Shown here in pieces: positions 6,839 to 22,118 of a DNA stretch of 64,000 nucleotides (the first letter of the stretch is position 1; every line of letters begins with the position of its first letter). The DNA lies in assembly GCF_001684965.1 (NCBI RefSeq), contig NZ_MAYG01000001.1, positions 682,001 through 746,000 on the forward strand, in the 5' to 3' direction. The notes under the pieces are model-generated. The model was not told the DNA's origin, did not search any database, and saw only the letters and a list, made by a program, of their open reading frames with translations. Origin of the DNA: Chryseobacterium arthrosphaerae (GTDB lineage: Bacteria > Bacteroidota > Bacteroidia > Flavobacteriales > Weeksellaceae). The position numbers and the translations under genes were made by a program.

Positions 6839-6945
6839 AGACATTAATATTACCTTACAGGGAATAGTTAAATATTTTATGTAAAATAATTCCCTTGATT
6901 TCTAGTCTATTATTAAGTTTTGTTAAAATTTATGTTCTAAAAGTT

Positions 6946-6975
6946 TTGCAGGAATTAAAAATCGTTCTATATTTG
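6946..6975 (+). promoter_or_regulatory. Promoter of tRNA-Ser (TTG-N19-TATATTTG)
   Basis: TTG at 6946-6948 and TATATTTG at 6968-6975 are separated by 19 bp and match the Bacteroidetes housekeeping consensus exactly (TTG, then TAnnTTTG). Transcription would start near 6981, about 30 bp before the tRNA. Confidence 0.8.
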
Positions 6976-7009
6976 CACCACTGAAAACAACGGTATTACC
7001 GGAGTTTAA

Positions 7010-7094
7010 GGAGAGTTGGCAGAGTGGTCGATTGCGGCAGTCTTGAAAACTGTTGACTGTAACAGGTCCGGGGGTTCGAATCCCTCACTCTCCG
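7010..7094 (+). tRNA. tRNA-Ser (anticodon UGA)
   Basis: An 85-nt class II tRNA. The acceptor stem pairs GGAGAGT with ACTCTCC, discriminator G. The anticodon loop is CTTGAAA (anticodon TGA), flanked by a GCAGT-type stem. A long variable arm follows, and the T arm contains GGTTCGAATCC. The long variable arm and the anticodon both show serine. CCA is not encoded (the next bases are CAG). Confidence 0.96.
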
Positions 7095-7100
7095 CAGAAA

Positions 7101-7130
7101 AACCTTCAGATTTTATCTGAAGGTTTTTTT
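7101..7130 (+). terminator. Rho-independent terminator of tRNA-Ser
   Basis: A perfect 11-bp stem (AACCTTCAGAT and its complement) with a 3-nt loop, followed by seven T. It begins 7 bp after the tRNA. Confidence 0.9.
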
Positions 7131-7652
7131 ATTTTTTAGCCATAAGGATTTTTAAGGAAGAATGGATGCTTCGCCGTTAAAGAAGGTGCATGCCTATATC
7201 CGCTTCATAAGAATCAATGAAATTGATTCCATTCTTTGCCTCCTTAAAAACCAGCAGTTTCAACAATAAAATCTTTGCGTTAATTCAATTCCATCAATAC
7301 AGATAATACTATTCCCCAACTTTTGTACCCTGTCCGAAGTATCTGGCTTTAAGAATTTAAAACATTCAATTAAGAATCAGAATAAATTTTGGAAAATTAA
7401 AAAATAGTGGCCCGGTCATGAATACTGATATCAGTTGTAGGGCCGTTCAACAATTTCCTTACGCATCAGGATACTTTTACCGGTGTAAGATTGTAATAAT
7501 AATCAGCTGTTAGATTGAATATCCGTAAACTTTATGATGACAATACTTGATCAATGATGAAAAAGGCTTTGGTAATGTCAGATAATGTTATTAAATTTAT
7601 AATGAGTTCCTGAATCACAATATTTTATTACACCTCTTTAAATTTATTAATC
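7131..7652. other. Spacer between tRNA-Ser and the pilin-like cluster, no gene seen
   Basis: About 520 bp with no credible reading frame. The only structures noticed are a short dyad GAATCAAT-gaa-ATTGATTC at 7211-7229 and AT-rich sequence before the first pilin-like gene. The TGTAGTG motif array found before the later three pilin genes is absent here, apart from one TGTAGGG at 7436-7442. Confidence 0.5.
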
Positions 7653-8195
7653 ATGAAAAAAAAGATCTTTATCTCTGCGCTGTCTCTGGGAGCAATTGTC
7701 CTGGGAACCCAACAGGTTATGGCACAAAATTCAGAGCGGGTGAGTACATCAGTAAATATTATTTTATCGGACGTTATTGCTATGGACATTGGCTCTGCTG
7801 CTTCAGAGGGAGCTGTAGATTTTAATTATGCGAATACAAAAGATTACAATTCACCGAAAAATATTACCGTTCCCAATAGTTTAGTCATCATTTCATCCAA
7901 AAATTTTGATGTAAAAGTAAAATCTGAAGGGACACACTTTGTAAGCGGAGCAAACTTAATTCCTGTAGATATATTACAGGTAAAAGCAATACCGGGCGGA
8001 AGCCTGGTAGGAACCCTGAATGAGGTTACTTTATCTGCAAATGATCAGGTGCTGGTGAGTAATGCAAGTTTAGGTACCAGACAGTCTTTAAATATTGCTT
8101 ACTCCATTTCGGCAGAAAATGCATCCAGGGTTCTTCTGGGAAAACCCCATGGAACTTACACACAGAAAATAACGTATACTGCCACTGCATTGTAA
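7653..8195 (+). CDS. Pilin-like secreted protein, divergent paralogue
   Basis: A 180-residue protein with a signal peptide cleaved after MAQ (about residue 25). The mature part is a single beta-sandwich-like domain paralogous to the three proteins that follow: shared blocks are VNIILSDVIAMDIGS, VDFNYANTKDYNSPKNI, NFDVKVKSEG, LIPVDILQVKA, and the C-terminal strand GTYTQKITYTATAL. It has no Cys. The pattern (secreted, about 155 mature residues, final GTYxxxxxYxATAL strand next to a chaperone gene) recalls spore-coat-U/Csu-type and DUF4402 fibre subunits, but I cannot prove the fold. It is separated from the next copy by a strong hairpin, so it may be expressed on its own. Confidence 0.75.
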   Translation: MKKKIFISALSLGAIVLGTQQVMAQNSERVSTSVNIILSDVIAMDIGSAASEGAVDFNYANTKDYNSPKNITVPNSLVIISSKNFDVKVKSEGTHFVSGANLIPVDILQVKAIPGGSLVGTLNEVTLSANDQVLVSNASLGTRQSLNIAYSISAENASRVLLGKPHGTYTQKITYTATAL

Positions 8196-8210
8196 ATAAA
8201 ATACCAATCC

Positions 8211-8258
8211 AAACAGAAAGCCCTCAATACTGTCAAAAGTATTGAGGGCTTTCTGTTT
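8211..8258 (+). terminator. Terminator after first pilin-like gene
   Basis: A perfect 21-bp stem (8211-8231 with 8238-8258, core CCCTCAATACT) with a 6-nt loop. It starts 15 bp after the stop codon. The stem is unusually long; related hairpins with the same CCCTCA core follow the second and third genes of the cluster. Confidence 0.85.
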
Positions 8259-8276
8259 AGGCCCAATGTGTAATGC

Positions 8277-8396
8277 TGTAGTGATTTTACTACATGAACT
8301 TCCTTTTTCCACTACAAAGAAACTTTTATTGCCGCTGTAGATTTGTAGTGTTCAAAAGGAACAATAAAAAAAGAATAACAATTAAATAATACTGCC
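8277..8396 (+). promoter_or_regulatory. Conserved leader of pilin copy 1 with heptamer array
   Basis: TGTAGTG or its complement CACTACA occurs at 8277-8283 (direct), 8288-8294 (as tACTACA), 8310-8316 (inverted) and 8344-8350 (direct). A -7 element TAGATTTG (TAnnTTTG) sits at 8338-8345 and overlaps the last heptamer, but no TTG lies at the usual distance upstream. That suggests an activator-dependent promoter. The 5' leader would be about 45 nt. Confidence 0.6.
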
Positions 8397-8942
8397 ATGA
8401 CAAAACAAATCTTAATCACAGCCTTAACTATCGGAGCGATCATATTGGGAACAGATAATGTTCAGGCTCAAAATACTACTGCAACTACAACCGTAAACAT
8501 TACCCTGAACGATGTAATCTCTATTGATGCCGGAAGTACTGCAATTGGTAATACGGTTGATTTTAATTATGCTACTGCAGCAGATTATAATTCTGATCAG
8601 ACGATTACTAAAGCCAACTCTCTGAAGGTTACTTCAACAAAGAACTTTAATGTAAAAGTAAAAGCAGGGGGTGCTAATTTCATGAATGGAACAAACTTAA
8701 TCCCTGTCAATGTTTTGACTATCAAAGCTGCCACAGCTGCCGGAACCATGGGCGGAACAAAAAATGCTGTAGTTTTATCTGCAACGGATCAGAATTTAGT
8801 TACCAATGCTCCTCTTGGAAGCGCATTAACACTGAATCTGGATTACACTATTCCCGCAGCAAAATCATCATCATCTGATATTTTAGGTAAACCGGCCGGA
8901 ACTTATACTCAAACAGTAACTTATACGGCGACTGCTTTATAA
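8397..8942 (+). CDS. Pilin-like secreted protein, tandem copy 1
   Basis: A 181-residue protein with a signal peptide (MTKQILITALTIGAIILG.., cleavage after VQAQ, about residue 25). The mature 156 residues are rich in Thr, Asn, Ala and Val with alternating hydrophobic strands, starting TTATTTVNITLNDVISIDAG and ending GTYTQTVTYTATAL; there is no Cys. The final strand motif also ends each of the three domains of the 477-residue protein at 14332. With a chaperone-like and a barrel protein downstream, the best reading is a major fibre subunit exported by a chaperone-usher-like route. Function is inference; homology among the cluster members is directly visible. Confidence 0.75.
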   Translation: MTKQILITALTIGAIILGTDNVQAQNTTATTTVNITLNDVISIDAGSTAIGNTVDFNYATAADYNSDQTITKANSLKVTSTKNFNVKVKAGGANFMNGTNLIPVNVLTIKAATAAGTMGGTKNAVVLSATDQNLVTNAPLGSALTLNLDYTIPAAKSSSSDILGKPAGTYTQTVTYTATAL

Positions 8943-9150
8943 GTTAATTTTTCATATTAATATTTTGTGATTTGGTGTTTCGAAGGCTTCCTCAGGAGGC
9001 CTTTGATTTTGTATGCATTTCTGGACATTTAAATCTAATTAATACATCACACCCAAACATTCAGTAGATTTTTGTGAAAACCTGAAGAAAAATTATACGC
9101 AAATGGTGATTTATATTATGATTGCTTTATAATAGTAACAGAATTTATAT

Positions 9151-9190
9151 AAGCCCTCAATACTTAGAAAGTGTTGGGGGCTTTATTATT
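9151..9190 (+). terminator. Terminator after pilin copy 1
   Basis: AAGCCCTCAATACT (9151-9164) pairs, with G.T wobbles, with AGTGTTGGGGGCTT (9170-9183), followed by T-rich sequence. It lies about 210 bp past the stop in the 390-bp spacer 8943-9332, which otherwise holds only the copy-2 leader. Confidence 0.7.
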
Positions 9191-9212
9191 TAATTCAAAA
9201 ATGAATAAACCG

Positions 9213-9332
9213 TGTAGTGATTTTACTACATGAACTTCCTTTTTCCACTACAAGGAAACTTTTATAGCCGCTGTAGATTTGTAGTGTTCAAAAGGAACAA
9301 TAAAAAAAGAATAACAATTAAATAATACTGCC
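9213..9332 (+). promoter_or_regulatory. Conserved leader of pilin copy 2
   Basis: The same 120-bp block as before copy 1, with TGTAGTG at 9213-9219, CACTACA at 9246-9252 and TGTAGTG at 9280-9286, and the TAGATTTG element overlapping the last one. A few bases differ from copy 1. Confidence 0.6.
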
Positions 9333-9878
9333 ATGACAAAACAAATCTTAATCACAGCCTTAACTATCGGAGCGATCATATTGGGAACAGATAATGTTCA
9401 GGCTCAAAATACTACTGCAACTACAACCGTAAACATTACCCTTAACGATGTAATCTCTATTGATGCCGGAAGTACTGCAATTGGTAATACGGTTGATTTT
9501 AACTATGTAACTGCAGCAGATTATAATTCTGATCAGACGATTACTAAAGCCAACTCTCTGAAGGTAACTTCAACAAAGAACTTTAATGTAAAAGTAAAAG
9601 CAGGGGGTGCTAATTTCATGAATGGAACCAATTTAATCCCTGTCAATGTTTTGACAATCAAAGCAGCAACAGCTGGCGGAACCATGGGCGGAACAAAAAA
9701 TGCTGTAGTTTTATCTGCAACGGATCAGAATTTAGTTACCAATGCTCCTCTTGGAAGTGCGTTAACACTGAATCTGGATTATACTATTCCCGCAGCAAAA
9801 TCATCATCTTCTGATATTTTAGGTAAACCGGCCGGAACCTATACGCAAACAGTAACGTATACAGCGACTGCTTTATAA
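9333..9878 (+). CDS. Pilin-like secreted protein, tandem copy 2
   Basis: A 181-residue protein that differs from copy 1 at two residues (Val in FNYVTAADY, Gly in KAATAGGTMGG). It has the same signal peptide, strand pattern and GTYTQTVTYTATAL end. Most nucleotide differences are silent, so the protein sequence seems to be under selection or kept alike by conversion. It has its own leader and its own hairpin terminator, so each copy may be transcribed as a single-gene unit. Confidence 0.75.
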   Translation: MTKQILITALTIGAIILGTDNVQAQNTTATTTVNITLNDVISIDAGSTAIGNTVDFNYVTAADYNSDQTITKANSLKVTSTKNFNVKVKAGGANFMNGTNLIPVNVLTIKAATAGGTMGGTKNAVVLSATDQNLVTNAPLGSALTLNLDYTIPAAKSSSSDILGKPAGTYTQTVTYTATAL

Positions 9879-9902
9879 TAAAAAAACACATCAATATATT
9901 TG

Positions 9903-9934
9903 CCCTCAGTACTTTCCAGGTATTGAGGGTTTTT
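9903..9934 (+). terminator. Terminator after pilin copy 2
   Basis: CCCTCAGTAC (9903-9912) pairs with GGTATTGAGGG (to 9929) with one wobble, 7-nt loop, followed by five T. Confidence 0.8.
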
Positions 9935-9957
9935 CTGTTTAGCCCAATGCGTAATGC

Positions 9958-10077
9958 TGTAGTGATTTTACTACATAAGCTTCCTCTTTCCACTACAAGG
10001 AAACTTTTATAGCCGCTGTAGATTTGTAGTGTTCAAAAGGAACAATTAAAAAAGAATAACAATTAAATAATACTGCC
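9958..10077 (+). promoter_or_regulatory. Conserved leader of pilin copy 3
   Basis: The same 120-bp block, with TGTAGTG at 9958-9964 and further direct and inverted copies at the same relative positions as in copies 1 and 2. It sits only 80 bp after the stop of copy 2. Confidence 0.6.
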
Positions 10078-10623
10078 ATGACAAAACAAATCTTAATCAC
10101 AGCCTTAACTATCGGAGCGATCATATTGGGAACAGATAATGTTCAGGCTCAAAATACTACCGCAACTACAACCGTAAACATTACCCTGAACGATGTAATC
10201 TCTATTGATGCCGGAAGTACTGCAATTGGTAATACGGTTGATTTTAACTATGTAACTGCAGCAGACTATAATTCTGATCAGACGATTACTAAAGCCAACT
10301 CTCTGAAGGTAACTTCAACGAAGAACTTTAATGTAAAAGTAAAAGCAGGGGGTGCTAATTTCATGAATGGAACGAACTTAATCCCTGTCAATGTTTTGAC
10401 TATCAAAGCAGCAACAGCTGCCGGAACCATGGGCGGAACAAAAAATGCTGTAGTTTTATCTGCAACGGATCAGAATTTAGTTACCAATGCTCCTCTTGGA
10501 AGTGCGTTAACATTGAATCTGGATTACACTATTCCCGCAGCAAAATCATCATCATCTGATATTTTAGGTAAACCGGCCGGAACTTATACTCAAACAGTAA
10601 CGTATACGGCGACTGCCTTATAA
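10078..10623 (+). CDS. Pilin-like secreted protein, tandem copy 3
   Basis: A 181-residue protein, identical to copy 2 except Ala for Gly in KAATAAGTMGG. Signal peptide, Thr/Asn-rich strands and C-terminal GTYTQTVTYTATAL are the same. No clear hairpin separates it from the chaperone-like gene 80 bp downstream, so transcription from this leader may read on into 10704-15765. If so, copy 3 links subunit and assembly genes, while the first two copies would only add subunit dosage. This last point is inference. Confidence 0.75.
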   Translation: MTKQILITALTIGAIILGTDNVQAQNTTATTTVNITLNDVISIDAGSTAIGNTVDFNYVTAADYNSDQTITKANSLKVTSTKNFNVKVKAGGANFMNGTNLIPVNVLTIKAATAAGTMGGTKNAVVLSATDQNLVTNAPLGSALTLNLDYTIPAAKSSSSDILGKPAGTYTQTVTYTATAL

Positions 10624-10666
10624 TAAAATTTTTAGTTTCAAAAGCTCCTTTTTGCTATGTTTTCAG

Positions 10667-10674
10667 TAGTTTTG
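10667..10674 (+). promoter_or_regulatory. Possible -7 element before the chaperone-like gene
   Basis: TAGTTTTG matches TAnnTTTG and lies 29 bp before the ATG at 10704. The nearest upstream TTG is only 12 bp away, too close for the usual spacing, so this is a weak call. Confidence 0.3.
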
Positions 10675-10703
10675 GGTTCTTTTATCATTAAACTATTTAC
10701 ACC

Positions 10704-11504
10704 ATGCACAAGTTTATTCACCTATTCATTTTCTTTCTCCTCACAGGATCTTCTTCACTTCTGGCACAAAGTATCTCTATGTCGCCTACACGCTTGTTTT
10801 TTACCGGTAATCCGGGAGAAAAAGTAACAAAGACTGTTACGCTTCAAAACAGCTCGGATAAAGATTATGTTTTTAATCTCAACTATAAAGATTGGTTTAG
10901 AGAAGAAGACGGAAATAAGGTTTATCTTGAAGCAGGCAGTTCAAAAACTTCCAATGCTTCCTGGGTGTCTACTTTAGAAAACGCTGTAACGGTTCCTGCG
11001 AAAAGTACAAAGGAGATTGTAGTAACCATGCAGATTCCGGCAAACGCATCACAGTCTGCCGTTACAAACAGTATGCTGTTTTTCACCCAACTTCCTCAGC
11101 AGGCAGATAAGGCACGTGTTCAGAACGGTATTGGTATTATTACCTTATTTGAGGTGGGGCTTCATATCTTTTATACTCCACCGGGAAACCATGTGAAAAG
11201 TCTGGATATTACCAATATTGCAGAGGTGAGTAATCAGAATGCAGCGAACAGAAAAGTCGCAGTAAGCATTCATAATGATGGAAACACGGTCAATGATGCC
11301 ACCGTTGAGTTTGAACTCACCAATACAGACAGTGGTAAGGAAATGAAATTACCCGCAATTTCCATCTCCATGCTTCCGGATACCGATCAGGTTGTTCAGT
11401 TTTCTTTACCGGAGAACATTTCAGGGAACTTTCTTGGCGTGGTTATCGTCAAAATGGCAGAATCCAACGATTTACGTGTAGGAGAAAAAAACTTTAAATT
11501 TTAA
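10704..11504 (+). CDS. Periplasmic fimbrial-chaperone-like protein
   Basis: A 266-residue protein with a signal peptide ending LLAQ (about residue 22). The mature part starts SISMSPTRLFFTGNPGEKVTKTVTLQNSSDKDYVFNLNY, the classic opening of a PapD-like immunoglobulin domain, and continues with VTVPAKSTKEIVVTMQIPANASQ and MLFFTQLPQQ. A second Ig-like half follows (KSLDITNIAEVSNQ... to LGVVIVKMAES). Two Ig-like halves of about 120 residues fit a boomerang-shaped pilus chaperone. It lies between the subunit genes and the barrel gene, 9 bp from the latter. Sequence similarity to proteobacterial chaperones looks low; the call rests on layout and context. Confidence 0.65.
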   Translation: MHKFIHLFIFFLLTGSSSLLAQSISMSPTRLFFTGNPGEKVTKTVTLQNSSDKDYVFNLNYKDWFREEDGNKVYLEAGSSKTSNASWVSTLENAVTVPAKSTKEIVVTMQIPANASQSAVTNSMLFFTQLPQQADKARVQNGIGIITLFEVGLHIFYTPPGNHVKSLDITNIAEVSNQNAANRKVAVSIHNDGNTVNDATVEFELTNTDSGKEMKLPAISISMLPDTDQVVQFSLPENISGNFLGVVIVKMAESNDLRVGEKNFKF

Positions 11505-11513
11505 AATTAAGTC

Positions 11514-14321
11514 TTGAAACCACAGAATGGAATATCAATATCAGTCCTGAGAAGAACAATCTTATTTTTTGTATTTGTTCTTCTGCATATGTCGTTGGCC
11601 TTTGCGCAGGAAAAAAAGGACATTCAAATCCATTTTGAAAATGACAGTGTAGCTGTTGAGAAGGGTTCTACTTTTACTAATTTCCTGGTCATTGAGAATA
11701 AAAGTTCTGAAGAGATTATCATTCAGAATATCTTACCTCAGGAAAAATATCCGGGATTGCTTTTCTATCCCAAAAATGACTTTACTTTAGGTGCGGGTCA
11801 GTCTAAAACTCTTCCTGTAAAACTGATCGCCAACCTGGATTTTATGAAACTGAGATCCAATAAGATCCAATTCCAGGTTTCGTATGCCACCCCAACGCTC
11901 ACCGGAACTGAAAGCACATCGTTCTTCGTTGCTAAAGGCGAGAACAAAAACATTGCAATTTATACCGACACATACGAAAATTTCATTAATCCTGCTTTGC
12001 CCCAATCCTCAATTCTGCTGATTGTAGAAAACCAGGGATATAGTAAACGGACCGTTAAGATTGATTTGCAATCTATTCCTGATGGTCTGGAAATTTTGCC
12101 AAAACAGCAAACCATAACTCTGGAAGGTTTAGAAAAGCAAACGGTAGAGATCAGAATTGCAGTCAGAAAACAGAATACACTTTATCCGGAATTTAATATT
12201 AATGCAACTGTTACAGACCTGCTTGATAATAAAATCGTGGGAAGCAACACACTTTACTTAGTTATTTTATCGCATAACAGACAAATTGCCCGGGGAAACG
12301 AAGCGGCGAGCGGAAGTAATTTTGCGGAATTTAGCTATAATGAAAACAGTTCCGGTTTCAATTATCTTCAATTGAGGGGAAATACAGCGTTCCGGATGAC
12401 TGATAATTTGAAATCACGTTTCAATATTGGTGCAGATTACTATCATGAAGACGGCCGCTATAACCTGTATGATACCTGGCTGGAACTGGAGCGAAAAAAT
12501 ACGGTATTGAGGGTGGGAAATGTGAATAGCAGCGATTACGATTACCCGGTTTTCGGAAGAGGAGGGAAGGTTTCTACCAGATTTGGAAAAAATAACCAGG
12601 TTGAAATTCTTGCGCTTGAAAATAATTATAACCTCTACGGCACTTATTTCCAGCAAACGGAAGGATCTACCATGGTAGGGGCAAAATATGGTTTTGGGAA
12701 TGCCCAATCTTTCCATGGGAAAGTATCTTATATATTCGATCATGATCCGCGCTTTCACGTAGATACGCAGGTAGCGAATGCGGTGACATCGTTTCTGATT
12801 AACGATAAACATACCGTGCGGACGGAGATAGGCTTGAGCCACGAAAAAGGACTTTTGAACAATGATGAAAATGCAGGAGCTTCAATGGGAGCCCATTACG
12901 AAGGGAAAATAGGAAAATGGGATATACAATCTGTAAATTCATTTGCCACTAAAAGTTATGCAGGAATCAAACGGGGATCCTTTTTCTCAAATCAGCGGAT
13001 CGGCCGCCAGTTTTCTGCTGCTCAGCGTGCTTTTATACAATATCAGAATTCGCAGATAGAACCTGAGTTCCTGAGCTTCCAGAGTGAACCGGCCCAAGCT
13101 GGGAATACCTCGGATTTGCGTTATTATTTCAACAGCACAGAAGCTTTGGGATTAGGATATCAGTTTTCTTTAAAGAAGTGGAATTTTCTATTTTCTCCAA
13201 AGGTTGAAAAGCAGAAAACCGCTAATTTTTACACATCTCAGGAACTTTTTTCATACCGGTTGGAAGCCAATATCAGCACTACATTAGGTGCCCACGGGTT
13301 GAACCTGACGGCGGAATATTCTTATTCAAAAGAGAATAATAAACCGGACTGGTTCAACAGTCTGAAAACAACTTTGTCTTACAGATATAAATCATTCTCC
13401 CTCAACGGAACAGCCCAGTGGAATGCAACCAGTGTCTTTGATTTAAATTCTTATTATTATGATGTGAACCGTAATTTTGCCAACTATAACGTATACGCCT
13501 CGTATAATTTCCAGATGTTTAACCATAATCTGACCGGGTCATTTTCAGCAGGAGCCTTCTATTCGGAACTTTATAAAAATTTAAACAGCAATATCACCGG
13601 TAATCTGGAATATAAGATCTCGCCTTCCTGGTCCACCACAGGGTATTTTAATCTTTCAGGTTATAAATCTACGGCCGAATATGCAACCAGTGGCAGTTAT
13701 TACCAGTTCAGAGTGGGAATTAAAAAATATTTTACCACAGCTACAGCTTTCGGAAACCATAAAGTGGCGTTCCAGTTCTTTGAAGATAAAAATTTCAATG
13801 GACTTCTGGAGTCGGGCGAACCGGTACTTGCTAATGAAATTGTAAAGCTGGACAATTATGTAGCGATGACAGATAGGAATGGAAAAGTAGTTTTTCTGAA
13901 TGTGCCTGATGGCACTTACACCCTGAAGGTGAACGAAAGTGCGGGTGCACGGTTGATGATGGATCCTGTCATTATGGTACATAACAGTATCAACCGCAAA
14001 GTAGGCCTGGTAAAAAACATCAGGGTAAGTGGGAGATTGACAGAGATCAAACAGGCTTACGATACTGTGGAAACGGATGTGACCGGAATAGTGGTGTATG
14101 CAAAAAGTGAAGATGGTACGATCTCTACTGCCGTGGTTAATCAGAAAAATGAGTTTGAGTTTTTCCTGAAAGATGGAAAATACAACCTCTATATTGAAAA
14201 TGACAAATACAGCTATACACACCCTATCCAGACTATTCAGGTGACAAAAGAAGGATACTCAAAAACCGTGATTTTTGAATATAAGAAGAAAGACACTACC
14301 ATTAAGGTGAAAAAGTTTTAA
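11514..14321 (+). CDS. Outer-membrane beta-barrel protein, candidate usher
   Basis: A 935-residue protein. It has a signal peptide (1-31, ending SLAFAQ), then two Ig-like domains (about 35-150 and 150-255; NFLVIENKSSEEIII and ILLIVENQGYSKRTV), then about 480 residues of alternating aromatic strands (YNLYDTWLELERKNTVLRVGN, NLTAEYSYSKENN, SLNGTAQWNATSVFDL) that read as an outer-membrane barrel. A C-terminal SdrD/carboxypeptidase-regulatory-like domain follows (FFEDKNFNGLLESGEPVLANE, about 755-830), then one more beta domain. The start is TTG at 11514, the only start that keeps the whole signal peptide; it lies 9 bp after the chaperone stop. Usher function is inferred from position and architecture. 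Confidence 0.6.
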   Translation: MKPQNGISISVLRRTILFFVFVLLHMSLAFAQEKKDIQIHFENDSVAVEKGSTFTNFLVIENKSSEEIIIQNILPQEKYPGLLFYPKNDFTLGAGQSKTLPVKLIANLDFMKLRSNKIQFQVSYATPTLTGTESTSFFVAKGENKNIAIYTDTYENFINPALPQSSILLIVENQGYSKRTVKIDLQSIPDGLEILPKQQTITLEGLEKQTVEIRIAVRKQNTLYPEFNINATVTDLLDNKIVGSNTLYLVILSHNRQIARGNEAASGSNFAEFSYNENSSGFNYLQLRGNTAFRMTDNLKSRFNIGADYYHEDGRYNLYDTWLELERKNTVLRVGNVNSSDYDYPVFGRGGKVSTRFGKNNQVEILALENNYNLYGTYFQQTEGSTMVGAKYGFGNAQSFHGKVSYIFDHDPRFHVDTQVANAVTSFLINDKHTVRTEIGLSHEKGLLNNDENAGASMGAHYEGKIGKWDIQSVNSFATKSYAGIKRGSFFSNQRIGRQFSAAQRAFIQYQNSQIEPEFLSFQSEPAQAGNTSDLRYYFNSTEALGLGYQFSLKKWNFLFSPKVEKQKTANFYTSQELFSYRLEANISTTLGAHGLNLTAEYSYSKENNKPDWFNSLKTTLSYRYKSFSLNGTAQWNATSVFDLNSYYYDVNRNFANYNVYASYNFQMFNHNLTGSFSAGAFYSELYKNLNSNITGNLEYKISPSWSTTGYFNLSGYKSTAEYATSGSYYQFRVGIKKYFTTATAFGNHKVAFQFFEDKNFNGLLESGEPVLANEIVKLDNYVAMTDRNGKVVFLNVPDGTYTLKVNESAGARLMMDPVIMVHNSINRKVGLVKNIRVSGRLTEIKQAYDTVETDVTGIVVYAKSEDGTISTAVVNQKNEFEFFLKDGKYNLYIENDKYSYTHPIQTIQVTKEGYSKTVIFEYKKKDTTIKVKKF

Positions 14322-14331
14322 ATTTAAAAGT

Positions 14332-15765
14332 ATGAAAAAGATGAGGGCTTTTCTAATAGGAATTTTTACGGTGTTATGCGGGTCTGCAGCCACGAAAGCT
14401 CAGGATGTGTACCTGTCGGTTCCTGAAAATAATATTTTTAACAGAAGTGAATTTACCTCAGTACCTACAAGGGTAATGACAAACGCCAACAGAACAAACT
14501 GGGATTATGCCTTTTTGGGATTACTTCCTACAGCGCCTACATTTACCTCTGTTTCCGGGCCAACTTTTACTCACTCTTCGTCCTCACTTACTTTACCCAG
14601 TTCCACGCTTCTTTGGCAGTTGGAAAGCATGGGCGGGCAGCTGCCGTCTATTGGATTTTCAGGTTATTTACCAGGTTTTCAGTCGTTCAGTACAAGCGCT
14701 GTAAGATGGTTTGAACCGCCATCAACCAGCCTCGGGGGAGGATTTAACCGGGGAAATATCAATTTTACATTTAAAATTCCTGCCGCACAATTTACGGCCA
14801 ATGCCTTCCGGGCCGGAAATTACTCCATGGATATCACTCAGAATTATAATGACTTCACCCCACGAAACTTTAAAACAATTTTGGTCATTCCTTCCTCTAT
14901 ACGATGGATCGCCAACTCTTTAACAAAATACATAGAAATATCTTCTCTGAATGACTACCGCAATACAGCTACGCGCGTATGGGATCTGGGGAATACGGAA
15001 ATTGCGCATACGGTCGATTTTAATTTTTGGGCGAAAGCTGCTTCCGCAAACATTCAGTTCACTTCTTCCAAAGGTGTTCCGGGAACCAGAAATATAGCCA
15101 GCCTTAAATTGGGGAGTAACGGATCTGCACTCACAACCAAGGCCCTGTCTTCCGACTTTCAGAATTTTTCAGCTGCTAATTTCAGTGTTGTAGCGGGAAA
15201 CAGAAGCAGCTTTATTCCGCAGCTTTATGTGTCTGCGGATGACTTTAAAAACCTTTTTTTTGAAGCCGGAACCTATACGTTTGAATTGAACTTCAATGCC
15301 GGAAGTACGGATAATTCAATTAACAGTCTGCAAAATACGGCTGTTCAGTTGAAGGTGCTTCCTCTGTCCGAGATTACCATCCCCAGTTCCGGGCGTAACG
15401 TCAACTTCAATTTCAATACCGCTGCCCAATATACCGACGGCCAGTCACAAATGATTCCCAACCAGATTATGTTGTCCAATAATGAAAATTTTGAACTCTA
15501 TGTAAAATCGGACGAAAATTACTTCAAGAAAGGCGGCCTGCAGACCGACATCAATTCAAACATTTTACAAATTGGTGTAGATGGAGGCTCTGTAAATGTA
15601 CCTTTATCCAAAACTCCTCAAAAAATACTTTTTAACGGAGCACCGGTTTTGGACCGGGGGCTGAACATAAGATATACCATACCTCCTGCAGGTGCCCAAA
15701 GTTTGGTAGGGAAGGAAAACACCACTTACTCTGTCAATGTTTATTATAGCTTTACGGCAATTTAA
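14332..15765 (+). CDS. Three-domain pilin-like protein, candidate tip adhesin
   Basis: A 477-residue secreted protein (signal peptide 1-24, ending TKAQ). Three tandem domains can be seen. Each ends in the same kind of strand as the small subunits: AGNYSMDITQ near 161, AGTYTFELNF near 312, and NTTYSVNVYYSFTAI at the C terminus. The last domain (about 340-477) aligns clearly with the pilin-like proteins: VNFNFNTAAQY against VDFNYATAADY, and LNIRYTIPPA against LNLDYTIPAA. A long protein with one subunit-like domain at its C terminus is the usual design of tip adhesins in chaperone-usher systems. The gene starts 10 bp after the barrel gene. Confidence 0.65.
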   Translation: MKKMRAFLIGIFTVLCGSAATKAQDVYLSVPENNIFNRSEFTSVPTRVMTNANRTNWDYAFLGLLPTAPTFTSVSGPTFTHSSSSLTLPSSTLLWQLESMGGQLPSIGFSGYLPGFQSFSTSAVRWFEPPSTSLGGGFNRGNINFTFKIPAAQFTANAFRAGNYSMDITQNYNDFTPRNFKTILVIPSSIRWIANSLTKYIEISSLNDYRNTATRVWDLGNTEIAHTVDFNFWAKAASANIQFTSSKGVPGTRNIASLKLGSNGSALTTKALSSDFQNFSAANFSVVAGNRSSFIPQLYVSADDFKNLFFEAGTYTFELNFNAGSTDNSINSLQNTAVQLKVLPLSEITIPSSGRNVNFNFNTAAQYTDGQSQMIPNQIMLSNNENFELYVKSDENYFKKGGLQTDINSNILQIGVDGGSVNVPLSKTPQKILFNGAPVLDRGLNIRYTIPPAGAQSLVGKENTTYSVNVYYSFTAI

Positions 15766-16420
15766 CTTTCTGAAGTAACTCTTGTAATACTTAATCGCCG
15801 GATCAGCATAATATTAACGGTATTCAAAAAAAATCTGGTTTTTGATTTTTTGTGCTTGCGGCTTCTAAGATGAACGGTTTTGCTTTCATCGGTTGGCGAA
15901 AAATTCCTTCATGCGCATAAAATAAGCGGGAGGCCTTCCAATAATTCGTTTCTCATTCCATGCTGTGCCAGCATTTTAGGGCTGTGGTTCCGTCATCACA
16001 ATTGATATAGGCCATAAAACTGTTCAAAAGATTTCTTAAAGTATCTCTGCAGATACGTTTCTTCCTTTGATGATTTTTCCTTCATCACGCCATATTTTCA
16101 GAACCTGTAGATGTGATATTGCCCCATGTTTCATCTTTTACCCGTTTCCCGTAATGCAAGTAACAGTTTATTAGGTGGAAGTCTTCCGGAATATTATGCC
16201 GCACAAAGCTGTTTTAAGTTAAATAAAATACGGTATTTGTAATTTTAGGTAAATCCTATTTGATTTTTCTTTTTACCAATATGATATTTTTTATAACTTG
16301 CCGGCTCCTGGAAGAAAGGCCTGAACTATAGTTTTATTTGCATTTAAACAATGCAATCCTTTCTGCCTTCTTTCAAAAAAAATAATTCAAACAGCTTCTA
16401 AAACCTTTGAAACGGATTTT
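15766..16420. other. 655-bp spacer with possible decayed gene on the minus strand
   Basis: No intact gene of normal size is present. On the minus strand, short coding-like pieces sit in different frames: 16036-16134 encodes 32 residues starting MKHGAISHLQVLKIWRDEG and ending SAEIL, and further pieces (for example RNLLNSFMAYINCDDGTTAL) continue in other frames towards 15900. This would fit a gene broken by frameshifts, but the pieces are short and could be chance. No clear terminator for the preceding operon was found. Confidence 0.35.
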
Positions 16421-17155
16421 ATGAATGATTTTATCAACGAACTACAATTAAAAATTGAAAGACTGGAAAACGAAATCAATTTCAAGAACGGACTGATCTC
16501 GCTATTGTCTCATGATTCAAAAGAACTGTTTGGAACCCTTCTGTGGCTTTTAGAAGAGCTGGAGCAGAAGACCATAAGTGAGGAAGATTTTTTTAAGTTG
16601 TTGCCACAGATAAAAAAAGATGCCCGGAAAAACCTGCAAACTATTCAGGACAGCGTTGCATGGCTAAAAACGCAATACGGGGAATTTAAGATTAAGCCCG
16701 TCAAAATTATGGTGATGGATCTTTTTCATCATTTAGAAGAGAAATATGCGGCTAAATTAAAAGAAAAAAACATCAGATTTTATTTTAAAGGAGATCACAA
16801 TGCATTGGTGACAGGCGACCGTATATTGCTCGAATATGTTTTAGACAAAATTTTTGATAATGCGGTAAAATACTCCTTTCCGGGGCAGGATGTTTATCTG
16901 CAGGAAGTTACAGAAGGTAATCAGGTTGTACTGTCTGTAATTGATTTCGGAACCGGAATGAATGAAAAGTATTTACCTGCGATCTACACCTATGATCATC
17001 CTGTATTCCTGGGAACTGCCGGTGAGAAAGGCGTTGGATTAAGTTTGAAAATTGTAAAAAATTTTATATCCTTGCTGAATGGAAACATCCAAATCATTTC
17101 CGCTGAAAATAAAGGCACTACGGTTTCCCTTTTTTTACATAAATTTATAGAATAA
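16421..17155 (+). CDS. Soluble sensor histidine kinase
   Basis: A 244-residue kinase without membrane segments or a recognised sensor domain. A short coiled coil (INELQLKIERLENEI) leads directly into the H box (LISLLSHDSKELFG, His31). The ATP-binding domain follows, with FDNAVKYSF (N box), VIDFGTGMNEKYL (G1) and GEKGVGLSLKIVKNF (G2). Its UAA overlaps the AUG of the response regulator by one base, so the two are translationally coupled. Because it has no sensor part, it probably takes its input from another protein. It lies next to the pilus-like cluster and is the best candidate for its control. Confidence 0.88.
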   Translation: MNDFINELQLKIERLENEINFKNGLISLLSHDSKELFGTLLWLLEELEQKTISEEDFFKLLPQIKKDARKNLQTIQDSVAWLKTQYGEFKIKPVKIMVMDLFHHLEEKYAAKLKEKNIRFYFKGDHNALVTGDRILLEYVLDKIFDNAVKYSFPGQDVYLQEVTEGNQVVLSVIDFGTGMNEKYLPAIYTYDHPVFLGTAGEKGVGLSLKIVKNFISLLNGNIQIISAENKGTTVSLFLHKFIE

Positions 17156-17799
17156 TGGGTTCAAAAGTAAACATTCGTATTGTAGTAGCAGATGATCATG
17201 GTATCGTTCGGATGGGTTTGATACAGACGATCAAACGGTTAAGACCCGATGCCGTCATTTCAGAAGTAGAGGATTATAAATCACTGTACAAATTAATTCT
17301 GAATGAAAAACCGGACCTGGCTATTATGGATGTAAATATGCCTAATGGTACTGTGCAGGAAGCGATAGATTATGTAAAAATTCACCAACCTGAATTGAAA
17401 ATTCTGATATTTTCTTCACAGGATGAAGAACTGTATGGGATGCGTTACCTGAAAATGGGTGCCGGTGGCTACTTAAGCAAACTAAGCTCTACTGAAGTAA
17501 TTGAGACTGCTTTAACGGCGATGCTTACTAAGGGCCGGTATGTAAGTGACCATATAAAAGAAGCTGTTTTCTTAGAATCATTAAATGGCACAGCCAAAAA
17601 TTCTCCTTTTGAAGCGTTATCGGACCGCGAATTGCAAATTGCGAATAAGCTTGCAGAAGGTCTTCCCCTTAAAGAAATCTCTAACCAGCTGAATCTCCAT
17701 TCATCAACGATCAGCACCTACAAAATAAGGTTGTTTGAGAAGTTAAAAATACGGTCTATACCCGAATTGGTGGAGATCCTCAGGATGTATAACCAATAG
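17155..17799 (+). CDS. LuxR/NarL-type response regulator
   Basis: A 214-residue regulator: receiver domain (IRIVVADDHGIVRMGL, phospho-acceptor Asp59 in LAIMDVNMP, conserved Lys in GGYLSKLSS) and a C-terminal LuxR-type helix-turn-helix (ALSDRELQIANKLAEGLPLKEISNQLNLHSSTISTYK). It would bind DNA when phosphorylated by the kinase encoded just before it. It is a clear paralogue of the regulator at 41044. The repeated TGTAGTG motifs before the pilin-like genes are a reasonable target guess, but this is untested. Confidence 0.92.
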   Translation: MGSKVNIRIVVADDHGIVRMGLIQTIKRLRPDAVISEVEDYKSLYKLILNEKPDLAIMDVNMPNGTVQEAIDYVKIHQPELKILIFSSQDEELYGMRYLKMGAGGYLSKLSSTEVIETALTAMLTKGRYVSDHIKEAVFLESLNGTAKNSPFEALSDRELQIANKLAEGLPLKEISNQLNLHSSTISTYKIRLFEKLKIRSIPELVEILRMYNQ

Positions 17800-18209
17800 A
17801 TATTCTATCATAAAAATCTGATTGAAATTCAATGGGATTATATTAAATGCTGCAGCGGATTTTGCAATGCAGATGAGAGAGATATGGAGTGTTTGCTGTT
17901 GTTATCAATCTACGCTGCCAAATAGAGATTCCAGAAGATTTTTATATCTCAAGGGTACTTTTTTTAGTTTCATAATACCAATGACTTCTCTGAAAAATCC
18001 GGAATTTGCTTCAATTCATTTGAAATAATCATGTATAAATGTTTATTGTCAAATTTACTGTAATGTAATACAAATAATTTCGTATTTTGGTTTGCCTGTT
18101 AAAATAATAATTCAAAGCATTTAAAAATATTTAAAATATAAACTTTAATGCGGTGATTATCATTTTTTAATAATTGAAATAGAAAAATCTCTAATTGTTG
18201 ATATAATAT
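17800..18209. other. Spacer before the hybrid kinase, no gene seen
   Basis: About 410 AT-rich bases. A 68-codon open frame at 17822-18028 has no recognisable features and an odd composition (MQMREIWSVCCCYQ), so I do not call it. No clear terminator or promoter was identified. Confidence 0.4.
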
Positions 18210-21200
18210 ATGAAGAAGTATCCAATTCCTGCGAATGAAGAAGGGAGAATGAAAAAACTGGAGTATTTTGATCTTTTAAACCTTGAAAAAGATCCCCAGT
18301 TAGACATTTTTGCAGAAACAGCATGCCTGGTGACAGACTGCCCCGCAGCGCTTATTGCTATGATGGAAAGCGAAACCCAGACCATTCAGAGCTGTGTAGG
18401 ACTTGCCCTTGACTTTGTAGACAGAAAAAACACGGTATGCCAGTATTCTATTGCAAGTGGAGATATCCTCATTATCAATGATACTCTGTTAGACGAAAGA
18501 TCATCTGATAACCCGCTTATTCTGGCTGGTGGCATTCGGTTTTATGCAGGAATACCACTTATTGATGATGAAGGATTCGTATTAGGAACCATCTGTGTTA
18601 TTGATTATAAACCCAAAACAATTACCAGCGATCAGATTTCAACCCTAAAAAAAATAGGAGAGGCCATCACCAAAATACTGATGGCAAAAAGGAAGAATAT
18701 TGAGGCTGAGTATTTTCAAAAAACGTTTACCATTTCTAATAATCTGATCTGTGTTCTGGATAAAGATTTTTTATTGAAAGAGAGTAACCCGGCCTTTGAA
18801 AAAACCTTTCAAATGGATAAAGGGCATCTTCTCAATCAGAATTTTCTCGATCTGATCGGAAGTCATAATTCTCAACTTCAACTATTTTCCAAAAATCTAC
18901 CCGATACAGATGAAGAAGTGACATTTACTACTTCAACAAACATAGGTAACACCCAAACCATCATTATTGAATGGTATTTAAAACTCAATCAAAATCATTC
19001 AGAGATTTTTTGTTTCGGAATTAACATCACTCAGCGAATCGAAGAAAAGCTTAAACTTGAAAGCTCTGAACGCCGCTTCAGAAGCTTCTTTGAAAATGCT
19101 ATTGGCCTGATGAGCATGCATGATATGGAAGGAAATATCATTGCTGTCAACGAAAAAGGCAGGGAAACCCTTCAATATTCTGCCGAAGAGGTTGAAAAGT
19201 TGAATTTAAAAGACCTTGTTCCCCAAAAAAACTGGCCTCTTTTGGAGCAATATCTCGAACGAATCAACAAAAGTCAGGAAGATTTCGGAACTATGATCCT
19301 GAGAACAAAAGGAGGTGAGGATATTGTCTGGATGTATCATAATCTCGTGGAGATCGATAAAGAAGGAAATCCATATGTGGTGAGTACTGCCCTGAATGTG
19401 ACTGAAAGAATTACCTTGGAAAAAGATCTTGTTCATACCAAAAAGATGTTGGAACAGACCAGTGCCGTTGCCCAGGTGGGAGGATGGGAAGTTAACCTGA
19501 AAAACAATACTGTTCTCTGGTCACAGTCTACCAGGGAAATCCATAAAATAGATAAAAATTTCCAGCCCGATCTTGAAAATGCACTGGGTTTCTACAGTGA
19601 GAAAAGCCGTGAGAAACTGGAATTATTGTTCGAAAAAGCTGTAAAAGAAGGCATTCCCTATGATGAAGAATTACAGCTTGTGCAAAATGACGGTATGATG
19701 ATCTGGGTAAGGGTAAAAGGCATACCGGAATTTGAAGACGGAGTATGCACCAGGGTCTATGGAATCATTCAGAATATTGATAACTTCAAGAATATTTATC
19801 TTGAACTGGCCAAAAAAGAGGCTATGCTGCAGTCTTTTGTAAAATACGTACCTTCTACAGTAGCGATGTTTGACAAAGATCTTAATTACCTTTCCGTAAG
19901 CAGAAGCTGGAAAGATGAATTCCAGATGAACGACATCAGGCTTATTGGCGAAAACATGTTTAAGATTTCCCCCAATGTACCGGATGAAAGAATAAAAATA
20001 TACCAGGATGCACTGGCAGGAAAGGCTTACAAAAATGAAGATATGGCCATCGAAGTTCCAGGTAAAGGCATCATTCAGCATTATAATATAGAAGTTACTC
20101 CATGGTATCTTTCGAGTAATGTCATAGGCGGAATTATTGTTTCTGCACAGAATATTACAGCCTCTGTGAAAATCAATAAAGAGCTGAAAAATGCGAAGAA
20201 AATGGCAGATATTGCGAGTAAAGCAAAGACTGAATTCTTAGCCAATATGAGCCATGAAATCCGAACCCCGCTGAACGGTGTTATCGGGTTCTCTGATCTT
20301 CTTTTGAAAACGCCATTGAATGATATACAGACTCAATACCTCAATTATATCAATGAATCAGGGGAGAATTTACTGAATATCATCAACGATATACTTGATT
20401 TTTCCAAGGTAGAATCCGGAAAAATGGATCTGGTTGTTGACAGGTCCAATATTTATGACATGGTAAGCCAGGTCATCAATGTAATTCTTTACCAGTCGCA
20501 GAAAAAAAATATTGAGTTACTGCTGAATATAGAACAGGGACTCCCTGAAACCATCTGGCTGGATGAATCACGGCTGAAACAGATTTTGGTCAACCTTCTT
20601 GGAAATGCAGTGAAATTTACAGAACAGGGAGAAATAGAACTTAAAGTAGAAAAACTGAATCTGGACAGTAAGAATATCAAATTGAGATTTTCCGTAAGAG
20701 ATACGGGAATTGGTATCCCCAAGGAAAAACAGCAGCATATTTTCAATGCATTTACCCAGGAAAACAGTTCTATCAGCAAACGGTATGGAGGAACAGGTCT
20801 CGGACTGACCATTTCAAATAATATTCTGAAATATATGGGAAGTAGCCTGTCATTGTTGAGCGAAGTTCAGAAAGGATCTGTTTTCTATTTTGACATAGAA
20901 GTACCTTACGAAATATCTGACCGTCATGAAAATGAGGACCTGAAAATAAACAAGGTGCTGATTGTAGATGATAATGAAGCCAACAGGATTATTATTCAGC
21001 ATATGCTTGCCTATAAAAATATAGATTCAAAGCTTGCAGCCAACGGAATGGAAGCTCTTCAGATATTACTTGCAGGAGAGCGTTTTGATGTCATTCTGAT
21101 GGATTATCATATGCCGGTTATTTCCGGGCTGGAAACGATCGAAAAAATCAGGGAACTCTTCAACAAACAGCATGAATCTTCTCCTTTGATTATTCTTCAC

Positions 21201-22118
21201 ACGTCTTCTGAGGAACACGATGTTATTAATTCTTTCCGCCAGGAAAACAATTCATATTTCCTGCTGAAGCCTATCAAGTCTGAAGAGCTTTATAAAACAT
21301 TAAGAACAGCTGTGAAAAATACAGAAAAAGAGACAACCGTTACCGTACAACCTGAAACAGAAATATCCATACTGATGCAGTCTCCGAAAGTTTTACTGGT
21401 AGATGATAACCCGGTCAATATGGTTCTTAACCATAAAATGATGCGTTCACTGGTTCCGGATGCACAGCTTACAGAAGCTACGGATGGGCTGCAGGCTGTT
21501 TTGCAGTGTAAAGAAAAAACATTCGACATCATTTTAATGGATGTTCAGATGCCGGTAATGGATGGTATTGAAGCTACTAAACAAATCCGTTTACTCCCGG
21601 AATATTCCAATGTTCCGATTATTGGTGTAACTGCAGGTAATGTTCTTGGAGAGAAAGAAAAGTGCCTGGATTCCGGGATGAATGACTTCCTGCCTAAACC
21701 TTTAAGACAGGCTGATCTACTGGAAATGCTGAAAAATCATATCGGTAATGAAAATAATACTCTTTCCGGAGATTCTGCTACTAAGAAAACCTACCTGGAT
21801 ATCAACCTCCTGAATGAACAAATAGGGGATGACGATGAGGATTTCAGAAAAACATTTTTGAACCTTGTAATAGATCAACTTACTCAGGCTGAGGAAAATA
21901 TCAAAAAAAGCACAGCTGAAAAAGACAGTGCCGGCTTGAAACTGATTCTTCACAAGCTCAAAGGAACGGCAGGAACAGCAGGACTGATAAGTCTTACTGA
22001 ACGTACTGCAAGTTGGGAAAATAAAACAGATCCTGAGATGGATTTTATTTCCATGGAAGAAGAAATTATCCAGGAGATAAAAACCGGTTTACAGTTAATT
22101 AAAAATCTGATACAATAA
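18210..22118 (+). CDS. Hybrid sensor histidine kinase (GAF-PAS4-HK-REC2-Hpt)
   Basis: A 1302-residue cytoplasmic phosphorelay protein. The order of domains is a GAF domain (about 20-160), four PAS domains (about 165-280, 285-405, 410-530 and 535-660), a HisKA domain with His682 (FLANMSHEIRTPLNG), an ATPase domain (GIPKEKQQHIFNAFTQ, GGTGLGLTISNNIL), two receiver domains (Asp965 in VILMDYHMP and Asp1111 in IILMDVQMP), and a C-terminal Hpt domain with His1248 (LHKLKGTAGT). All steps of a relay are in one chain, but no separate output regulator lies next to it. There is no membrane segment, so the signal should be cytoplasmic. Confidence 0.93.
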   Translation: MKKYPIPANEEGRMKKLEYFDLLNLEKDPQLDIFAETACLVTDCPAALIAMMESETQTIQSCVGLALDFVDRKNTVCQYSIASGDILIINDTLLDERSSDNPLILAGGIRFYAGIPLIDDEGFVLGTICVIDYKPKTITSDQISTLKKIGEAITKILMAKRKNIEAEYFQKTFTISNNLICVLDKDFLLKESNPAFEKTFQMDKGHLLNQNFLDLIGSHNSQLQLFSKNLPDTDEEVTFTTSTNIGNTQTIIIEWYLKLNQNHSEIFCFGINITQRIEEKLKLESSERRFRSFFENAIGLMSMHDMEGNIIAVNEKGRETLQYSAEEVEKLNLKDLVPQKNWPLLEQYLERINKSQEDFGTMILRTKGGEDIVWMYHNLVEIDKEGNPYVVSTALNVTERITLEKDLVHTKKMLEQTSAVAQVGGWEVNLKNNTVLWSQSTREIHKIDKNFQPDLENALGFYSEKSREKLELLFEKAVKEGIPYDEELQLVQNDGMMIWVRVKGIPEFEDGVCTRVYGIIQNIDNFKNIYLELAKKEAMLQSFVKYVPSTVAMFDKDLNYLSVSRSWKDEFQMNDIRLIGENMFKISPNVPDERIKIYQDALAGKAYKNEDMAIEVPGKGIIQHYNIEVTPWYLSSNVIGGIIVSAQNITASVKINKELKNAKKMADIASKAKTEFLANMSHEIRTPLNGVIGFSDLLLKTPLNDIQTQYLNYINESGENLLNIINDILDFSKVESGKMDLVVDRSNIYDMVSQVINVILYQSQKKNIELLLNIEQGLPETIWLDESRLKQILVNLLGNAVKFTEQGEIELKVEKLNLDSKNIKLRFSVRDTGIGIPKEKQQHIFNAFTQENSSISKRYGGTGLGLTISNNILKYMGSSLSLLSEVQKGSVFYFDIEVPYEISDRHENEDLKINKVLIVDDNEANRIIIQHMLAYKNIDSKLAANGMEALQILLAGERFDVILMDYHMPVISGLETIEKIRELFNKQHESSPLIILHTSSEEHDVINSFRQENNSYFLLKPIKSEELYKTLRTAVKNTEKETTVTVQPETEISILMQSPKVLLVDDNPVNMVLNHKMMRSLVPDAQLTEATDGLQAVLQCKEKTFDIILMDVQMPVMDGIEATKQIRLLPEYSNVPIIGVTAGNVLGEKEKCLDSGMNDFLPKPLRQADLLEMLKNHIGNENNTLSGDSATKKTYLDINLLNEQIGDDDEDFRKTFLNLVIDQLTQAEENIKKSTAEKDSAGLKLILHKLKGTAGTAGLISLTERTASWENKTDPEMDFISMEEEIIQEIKTGLQLIKNLIQ

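Follow-up and report, generated by a model that had tools for sequence, protein, structure and literature searches.

We analyzed a 64,000-nucleotide stretch of Chryseobacterium arthrosphaerae DNA (contig NZ_MAYG01000001.1, positions 682,001 to 746,000), here called the window, and focused on a block of nine genes at 7653..17799 that probably encodes a far-diverged surface fibre system of the chaperone-usher type. The original prediction had described such a system, and an open reading frame (ORF) check of the window found all nine of its genes at the same coordinates, all on the + strand. The genes, and a repeat among them, are:

7653..8195, + strand: subunit 1, a divergent copy and candidate minor subunit (180 aa; signal peptide by eye)
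8397..8942, + strand: main subunit copy 1 (181 aa; AlphaFold2 model mb8293b6822d7)
9333..9878, + strand: main subunit copy 2 (181 aa; 19 of 546 bases differ from copy 1)
10078..10623, + strand: main subunit copy 3 (181 aa; 15 of 546 bases differ from copy 1)
8277..10257, + strand: whole span of a three-copy direct repeat, each copy starting about 120 bases 5' of a main subunit gene
10704..11504, + strand: chaperone-like periplasmic protein, PapD-like and WxLIP-like (266 aa)
11514..14321, + strand: usher-like outer-membrane barrel (935 aa, TTG start; AlphaFold2 model m0ad26d61c405)
14332..15765, + strand: putative adhesin or tip protein with a C-terminal subunit domain (477 aa)
16421..17155, + strand: histidine kinase with HATPase_c, by eye without a membrane segment (244 aa), part of the recurring block
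17155..17799, + strand: response regulator with a receiver and a LuxR-type DNA-binding domain (214 aa)

The three 181-aa subunit genes differ pairwise at 15–19 of 546 bases, and the 7653 subunit is 56% identical to the 8397 subunit. Since the repeat starts upstream of each main subunit gene, the copies were duplicated together with this upstream stretch.

A single-sequence search found relatives of the 10704 chaperone in all 60 genomes searched within the genus, its own included, and in 0 of 39 genomes that belong to other families of the order. They form three classes according to their identity to the window protein, A (86–100%, present in 27 of the 60 genomes), B (about 24–29%) and C (about 16–21%). 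The loci fetched for all three classes held small secreted-looking proteins, a chaperone and a barrel protein, mostly of 910–935 aa, together with an adhesin-like or a further small protein. Class A counts refer to 21 loci, the window included. Chaperone, barrel and adhesin stood together in all 21, the response regulator was present in 21/21 and the small kinase in 20/21, and in the genus this regulator pair travels with the block. An extra kinase-like ORF lay between adhesin and small kinase in 6 of the 20 loci with the small kinase. Subunit 1 was present in 15 of the 21 loci; four of the other six begin at a contig end, L054 may continue beyond the fetched stretch, and L047 lacks the gene. 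Class A loci uncut by a contig end carried two to six near-identical main subunit genes in tandem. The outer flanking genes differed between loci, which is the pattern expected of a cassette that is mobile or has been exchanged repeatedly, and the block may be such a cassette. The C. arthrosphaerae genome also holds a second copy, of class C (L031:7368-12686; G000:C1 about 3,415,400-3,420,700), with a subunit, a chaperone, a barrel and two small proteins; it adjoins SusC/SusD-like genes and an esterase-like gene (labels by eye).

Many other Bacteroidota, and one Deinococcus plasmid, carry comparable gene sets. A class B chaperone scan of GTDB contigs gave 72 named loci from Chryseobacterium, Flavobacterium, Myroides, Paenimyroides, Niabella, Mesonia, Sinomicrobium, Dysgonomonas, Leadbetterella, Weeksella and unplaced Weeksellaceae. 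In 69 of these 72, all four gene kinds were present in the order subunit, chaperone, adhesin, barrel; the three exceptions (L102, L106 and L109) are cut by contig ends, and L156, counted among the 69, has its subunit cut. Such co-occurrence, together with that in the 21 class A loci and the differing flanks, puts the block far beyond chance. One locus from another family of the same order (L081) showed identical gene order, kinase and regulator included.

Within the order, 69 of 296 genomes gave a barrel profile match at E 0.001, in many cases over a short C-terminal domain only; within the phylum, 15 of 395 did so at 1e-12. All 20 distant loci fetched first held both chaperone and barrel, on opposite strands in L098. 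A broader barrel profile at 1e-10 matched 30 of the 395 phylum genomes; it listed 44 places, of which 18 were newly fetched, and partial places in G429, G553, G626 and G656 were left out. Barrel profile matches occurred in 20 of 170 sampled genera, a few of them partial. A chaperone gene was nearby in 13/13 new hits of the broader profile that reached beyond the C-terminal domains (10 found first, 3 more by stop-to-stop reading), in L193 on the other strand about 1.5 kb from the barrel. Five hits covered the C-terminal domains only: three had no chaperone (L196, L197, L199), one had a chaperone (L198), and L200 was cut by a contig end. On the Deinococcus deserti plasmid (L173:6372-10828), a chaperone that shares 30.6% identity with one of class C adjoins a barrel relative (E 1e-7). 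Two small proteins flank this pair; only their position and size suggest that they are subunits, and neither was matched by the subunit profile. The annotations at this plasmid locus are FimB/Mfa2 and carboxypeptidase regulatory-like.

The chaperone profile was built from 73 distinct relatives, with a Cohnella DUF916 protein excluded and 9 double-named proteins removed, and its results hardly differed from those of the 82 rows before duplicate removal. Against six PapD-like chaperones of Escherichia coli K-12, the profile gave a probability (Prob) of 88.1 for mature and 96.9 for full-length sequences, over both domains, and the alignment took in the G1 donor-strand region. Control values were 0.2 for the reversed profile, 19.9 and 0.6 for the N-terminal and C-terminal parts of the barrel, and 2.9 for the subunits. 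Judged by these profiles, the 10704 protein is homologous to the pilus chaperones and has the two immunoglobulin-like (Ig-like) domains of the PapD form that had been proposed for it. In the joint alignment, the column that we take to be Arg8 of PapD held Arg in 6/6 K-12 chaperones and in 53 of the 73 relatives, with R30 in the window chaperone. In the column that we take to be Lys112, the K-12 chaperones had Lys in 6/6, and the relatives had Lys (42), Gln (18), His (11) or Tyr (2).

The profile results also indicate that this chaperone belongs with the Gram-positive WxLIP proteins, which combine DUF916 and DUF3324; the original prediction had not noted this kinship. The window chaperone passed the Pfam WxLIP_PGBD cut-off (32.3 against 27.3 bits), one class C chaperone passed that of WxLIP_HBD (39.2 against 28.9 bits), and the chaperone profile matched the Gram-positive Cohnella DUF916/WxLIP protein with Prob 97.5. 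Taken singly, classes A, B and C gave Prob 91.1, 2.2 and 90.3 with the Cohnella protein. Among 27 chaperones (the window's and 26 of class B), only 2 matched WxLIP_PGBD at E up to 0.01.

The 11514 barrel was modelled by AlphaFold2 from 39 sequences with a predicted local distance difference test score (pLDDT) of 73.5. The model has N-terminal strands at residues 37–257, Ig-like by Pfam FixG_C, followed by an uninterrupted series of 25 long strands within residues 269–740 and by small C-terminal beta domains at 749–925. At the level of a model, this agrees with the barrel of about 24 strands that had been expected, with predicted periplasmic domains at both ends. When the model was compared by Foldseek with 350,542 PDB chains, ranks 1–10 were all ushers (FimD or PapC), with E-values of 2e-16 to 2.7e-12. 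Below these ten came ciliary proteins from 5.7e-10 and many large transport barrels from about 3e-8.

Some further candidate links were tried and rejected. The whole barrel profile failed to connect with the K-12 ushers by sequence (Prob 6.0). The C-terminal part of the barrel gave Prob 77.3 with that of EcpC, which was discounted as usher homology because small beta domains of this sort are common. PDB sequence searches with chaperone, barrel and subunit retrieved no pilus protein; the best profile-search rows there were NOMO2 against the C-terminal domains of the barrel (E 0.0011) and a viral capsid peptide against the subunit (E 0.011).

Three Bacteroidota loci (L201, L202 and L203) have barrels that score below the cut-off of the Pfam Usher family, PF00577; by hmmscan, one of the three showed this family. 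A chaperone of the window family adjoins the barrel in these loci (Prob 99.1), and two of the barrels carry SPOR domains. Their barrels matched the window family in the C-terminal domains (Prob 97.8) and reached only 1.2 over the barrel itself, and their proteins scored only 20–31 against the ushers of K-12 and 20 against its chaperones. These loci suggest a bridge to known ushers and do not prove one.

The subunit model (8397) had a pLDDT of 83.0 and a predicted template modelling score (pTM) of 0.73. Its first strand does not begin before residue 41, its last strand (174–180) forms the C terminus, and residues 26–40 alternate between hydrophobic and polar by eye. Among the top 20 Foldseek rows, 12 were chaperone-usher pilus entries (E 2e-3 to 5e-2), one of which, 6k73_D, could be a chaperone rather than a pilin. 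The rows included TLP-1a (9.2e-5), CfaB (2.0e-3 and 3.2e-3), CFA/I pili, FimH, archaeal pili, TasA (rank 14), PapA and others.

The C-terminal domain of the 14332 adhesin matched the subunits with a profile–profile Prob of 97.5 over the domain (21 adhesins). This bears out the homology claimed in the original prediction and, on this comparison, the C-terminal domain is a subunit domain. The first two segments of the adhesin gave no match to the subunit profile (0.5 and 0.6). By eye, both of these earlier segments resemble the subunits in ending with a G-x-Y strand and then a hydrophobic stretch, an arrangement in which every domain might be completed by its successor within the chain.

Around the block, a tRNA-Ser gene lies just 5' (7010-7095), and a large hybrid sensor kinase (18210-22118) lies directly 3' of the 17155 regulator; the six class A loci with an extra kinase-like ORF have theirs between adhesin and small kinase instead. 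Positions 6901-18300 were scanned with a Bacteroidota promoter motif, and no + strand site was found 5' of any subunit gene. The sites in this region were one on the + strand (6946, before the tRNA gene) and two on the - strand.

The gene content, its recurrence as a block, the homology of the chaperone, the usher-like architecture of the barrel model and the homology between adhesin and subunits make a far-diverged chaperone-usher-type surface fibre system the probable product of the locus. In such a system the subunits would be exported by Sec, and the 10704 chaperone would hold each of them in the periplasm by supplying the beta strand missing from the Ig-like fold of the subunit. The periplasmic domains of the 11514 barrel would then receive the chaperone–subunit complexes, the subunits would be passed outward, and at the surface they would join by donor-strand exchange via their N-terminal alternating segment. 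The fibre would be built of the 8397/9333/10078 subunit, with the 14332 adhesin at the tip, and the kinase–regulator pair (16421/17155) may control the system. As far as they were run, the tests favoured the original reading of a fibre assembled by a chaperone-usher analogue, and the fibre itself is what we infer from them.

Several results weigh against this reading. For the chaperone, classes A, B and C taken singly reached Prob of only 6.6, 2.6 and 5.3 with the K-12 chaperones. Pfam searches of 27 chaperones (the window's and 26 of class B) found PapD_N in 2/27, weakly, and the window chaperone has His (H154) and not Lys in the Lys112 column. The barrel model was only moderately confident (pTM 0.47), and its template modelling scores in the Foldseek comparison were about 0.2. 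The FimD pore alone scored 7.8e-9, not far from the 2.9e-8 of LptDE; it is therefore the entire domain order, and not the pore alone, that carries the usher match. In ushers, the plug domain sits between barrel strands 6 and 7; the model showed no usher-sized plug, only a low-confidence stretch of 28 residues (372–399) between strands 7 and 8. PF00577 had 0 matches among 39 barrels (the window's and 38 of class B) at E up to 0.01 and 0 in the C. arthrosphaerae genome, and 0 of 296 sampled phylum genomes were over its cut-off, with 3 below. The barrel-only profile gave Prob 1.3 with K-12 ushers (reversed decoy 0.5), and the subunit profile gave 0.5 with K-12 pilins. Sequence gives no support for placing the locus within the archaic or alternative chaperone-usher class, to whose gene order the original prediction had likened it. 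Because both the PF00577 match and the plug are missing, we liken the system to the chaperone-usher pathway and do not file it as a member.

The subunit fold belongs to the same side of the account in part. Only the first Foldseek row had E <0.001, glycoside hydrolases stood at ranks 4–6, and in some FimH rows the lectin domain may be the part that was matched. Residues 31–40 are non-strand, yet they have a mean pLDDT of 90 and are confidently placed, which leaves a free N-terminal arm unsupported. The Ig fold lacking one strand that had been proposed for the small proteins agrees with the model in the absence of a strand before residue 41 and in the many pilin matches, and agrees less well in the modest E-values and the placed segment.

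An unlikely alternative is a Gram-negative surface complex of the WxL kind, in which the WxLIP-like protein stays bound to the subunits and the adhesin while the barrel does no more than export or anchor them. The WxLIP_PGBD and WxLIP_HBD matches point this way, the two-domain protein being homologous to that of the DUF916-DUF3324 clusters of Bacillota. A small and a large protein with a shared C-terminal domain beside a WxLIP protein is also the layout of WxL clusters in a passage of PMC10599100. The same passage predicts that a WxLIP strand completes the WxL domain in parallel fashion; in the favoured fibre reading, too, a strand would be inserted into the partner. Unlike the Bacillota clusters, the Chryseobacterium locus has an outer-membrane barrel. 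Against the alternative, no C-terminal membrane helix was seen when the C terminus of the window chaperone was read by eye. The WxL domain (PF13731) was found in 0 of 59 genomes of the genus and order, with a positive Lactococcus control, and the tandem, near-identical subunit genes suit a polymer.

Tandem subunit copies also tell against secretion of single, unpolymerised Ig-like adhesins by the barrel, as does the C-terminal subunit domain of the adhesin. The numerous large transport barrels in the Foldseek list would fit such a secretion route, but nearly every barrel examined has a chaperone gene, and we consider the route improbable. A type V (FimA/Mfa1) fimbria, the kind known from Bacteroidota, standing beside unrelated neighbours is the most improbable of these explanations. 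It shares with our locus the phylum (type V pili being those of Bacteroidia) and the proposed role as a surface fibre. The Deinococcus chaperone relative annotated FimB/Mfa2 scored just over the Mfa2 cut-off (21.7 against 21.2 bits), and Porphyromonas FimS was the best NCBIfam row of the window kinase, but with 93 bits against a cut-off of 600. The 7653 and 8397 subunits, the chaperone, the barrel and the adhesin had no FimA/Mfa family match at E up to 10, and no lipobox was seen by reading. The locus does have a chaperone and a barrel, whereas a passage of PMC5789003 holds that P. gingivalis probably lacks helpers of this kind.

The favoured chaperone-usher-type fibre is best seen against the pili for which the pathway is known, namely the classical (type 1 and P), alternative (CFA/I, ECP) and archaic (Csu) ones. 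The gene content is alike, the two-domain chaperone has a matching G1 segment, the barrel model matches FimD/PapC as a whole protein, CfaB is the best-ranked chaperone-usher pilin for the subunit model, and the adhesin likewise has a C-terminal subunit domain. In contrast, the barrel lies outside the Usher family with no sequence match in the barrel itself, its N-terminal part is larger and an usher-sized plug is lacking, the subunits have no sequence match to K-12 pilins, and the locus has its own kinase–regulator pair. The TasA/TapA fibres of Bacillus, touched by the TasA row of the subunit search, are not known to have an outer-membrane pore. Their assembly by strand exchange has been published (PMC9674648).

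The Chryseobacterium gene set resembles the machinery for adhesive fibres in E. coli and seems to be a remote relative of it that has escaped notice. The fibre most often cited for Bacteroidota is the type V pilus. Our searches of open-licence PMC papers listed no description of this family, and one passage of PMC4654587 places archaic chaperone-usher systems in Proteobacteria, Cyanobacteria and Deinococcus-Thermus, with Bacteroidota unnamed in that passage. It is conceivable, though we hold it as a tentative idea, that the PapD-like chaperones of proteobacterial pili and the Gram-positive WxLIP proteins, parts of two systems so far regarded as unrelated, share one donor-strand chaperone ancestor, and that the Bacteroidota and Deinococcota loci form a separate chaperone-usher branch with plug-less ushers, invisible to the usual usher model. 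If the reading of the locus as a chaperone-usher-type fibre system is right, a good part of Bacteroidota would possess a second donor-strand fibre system that the standard usher family misses, WxLIP would be tied to the pilus chaperones, and a plug-less usher would help to ask how the pore is gated.

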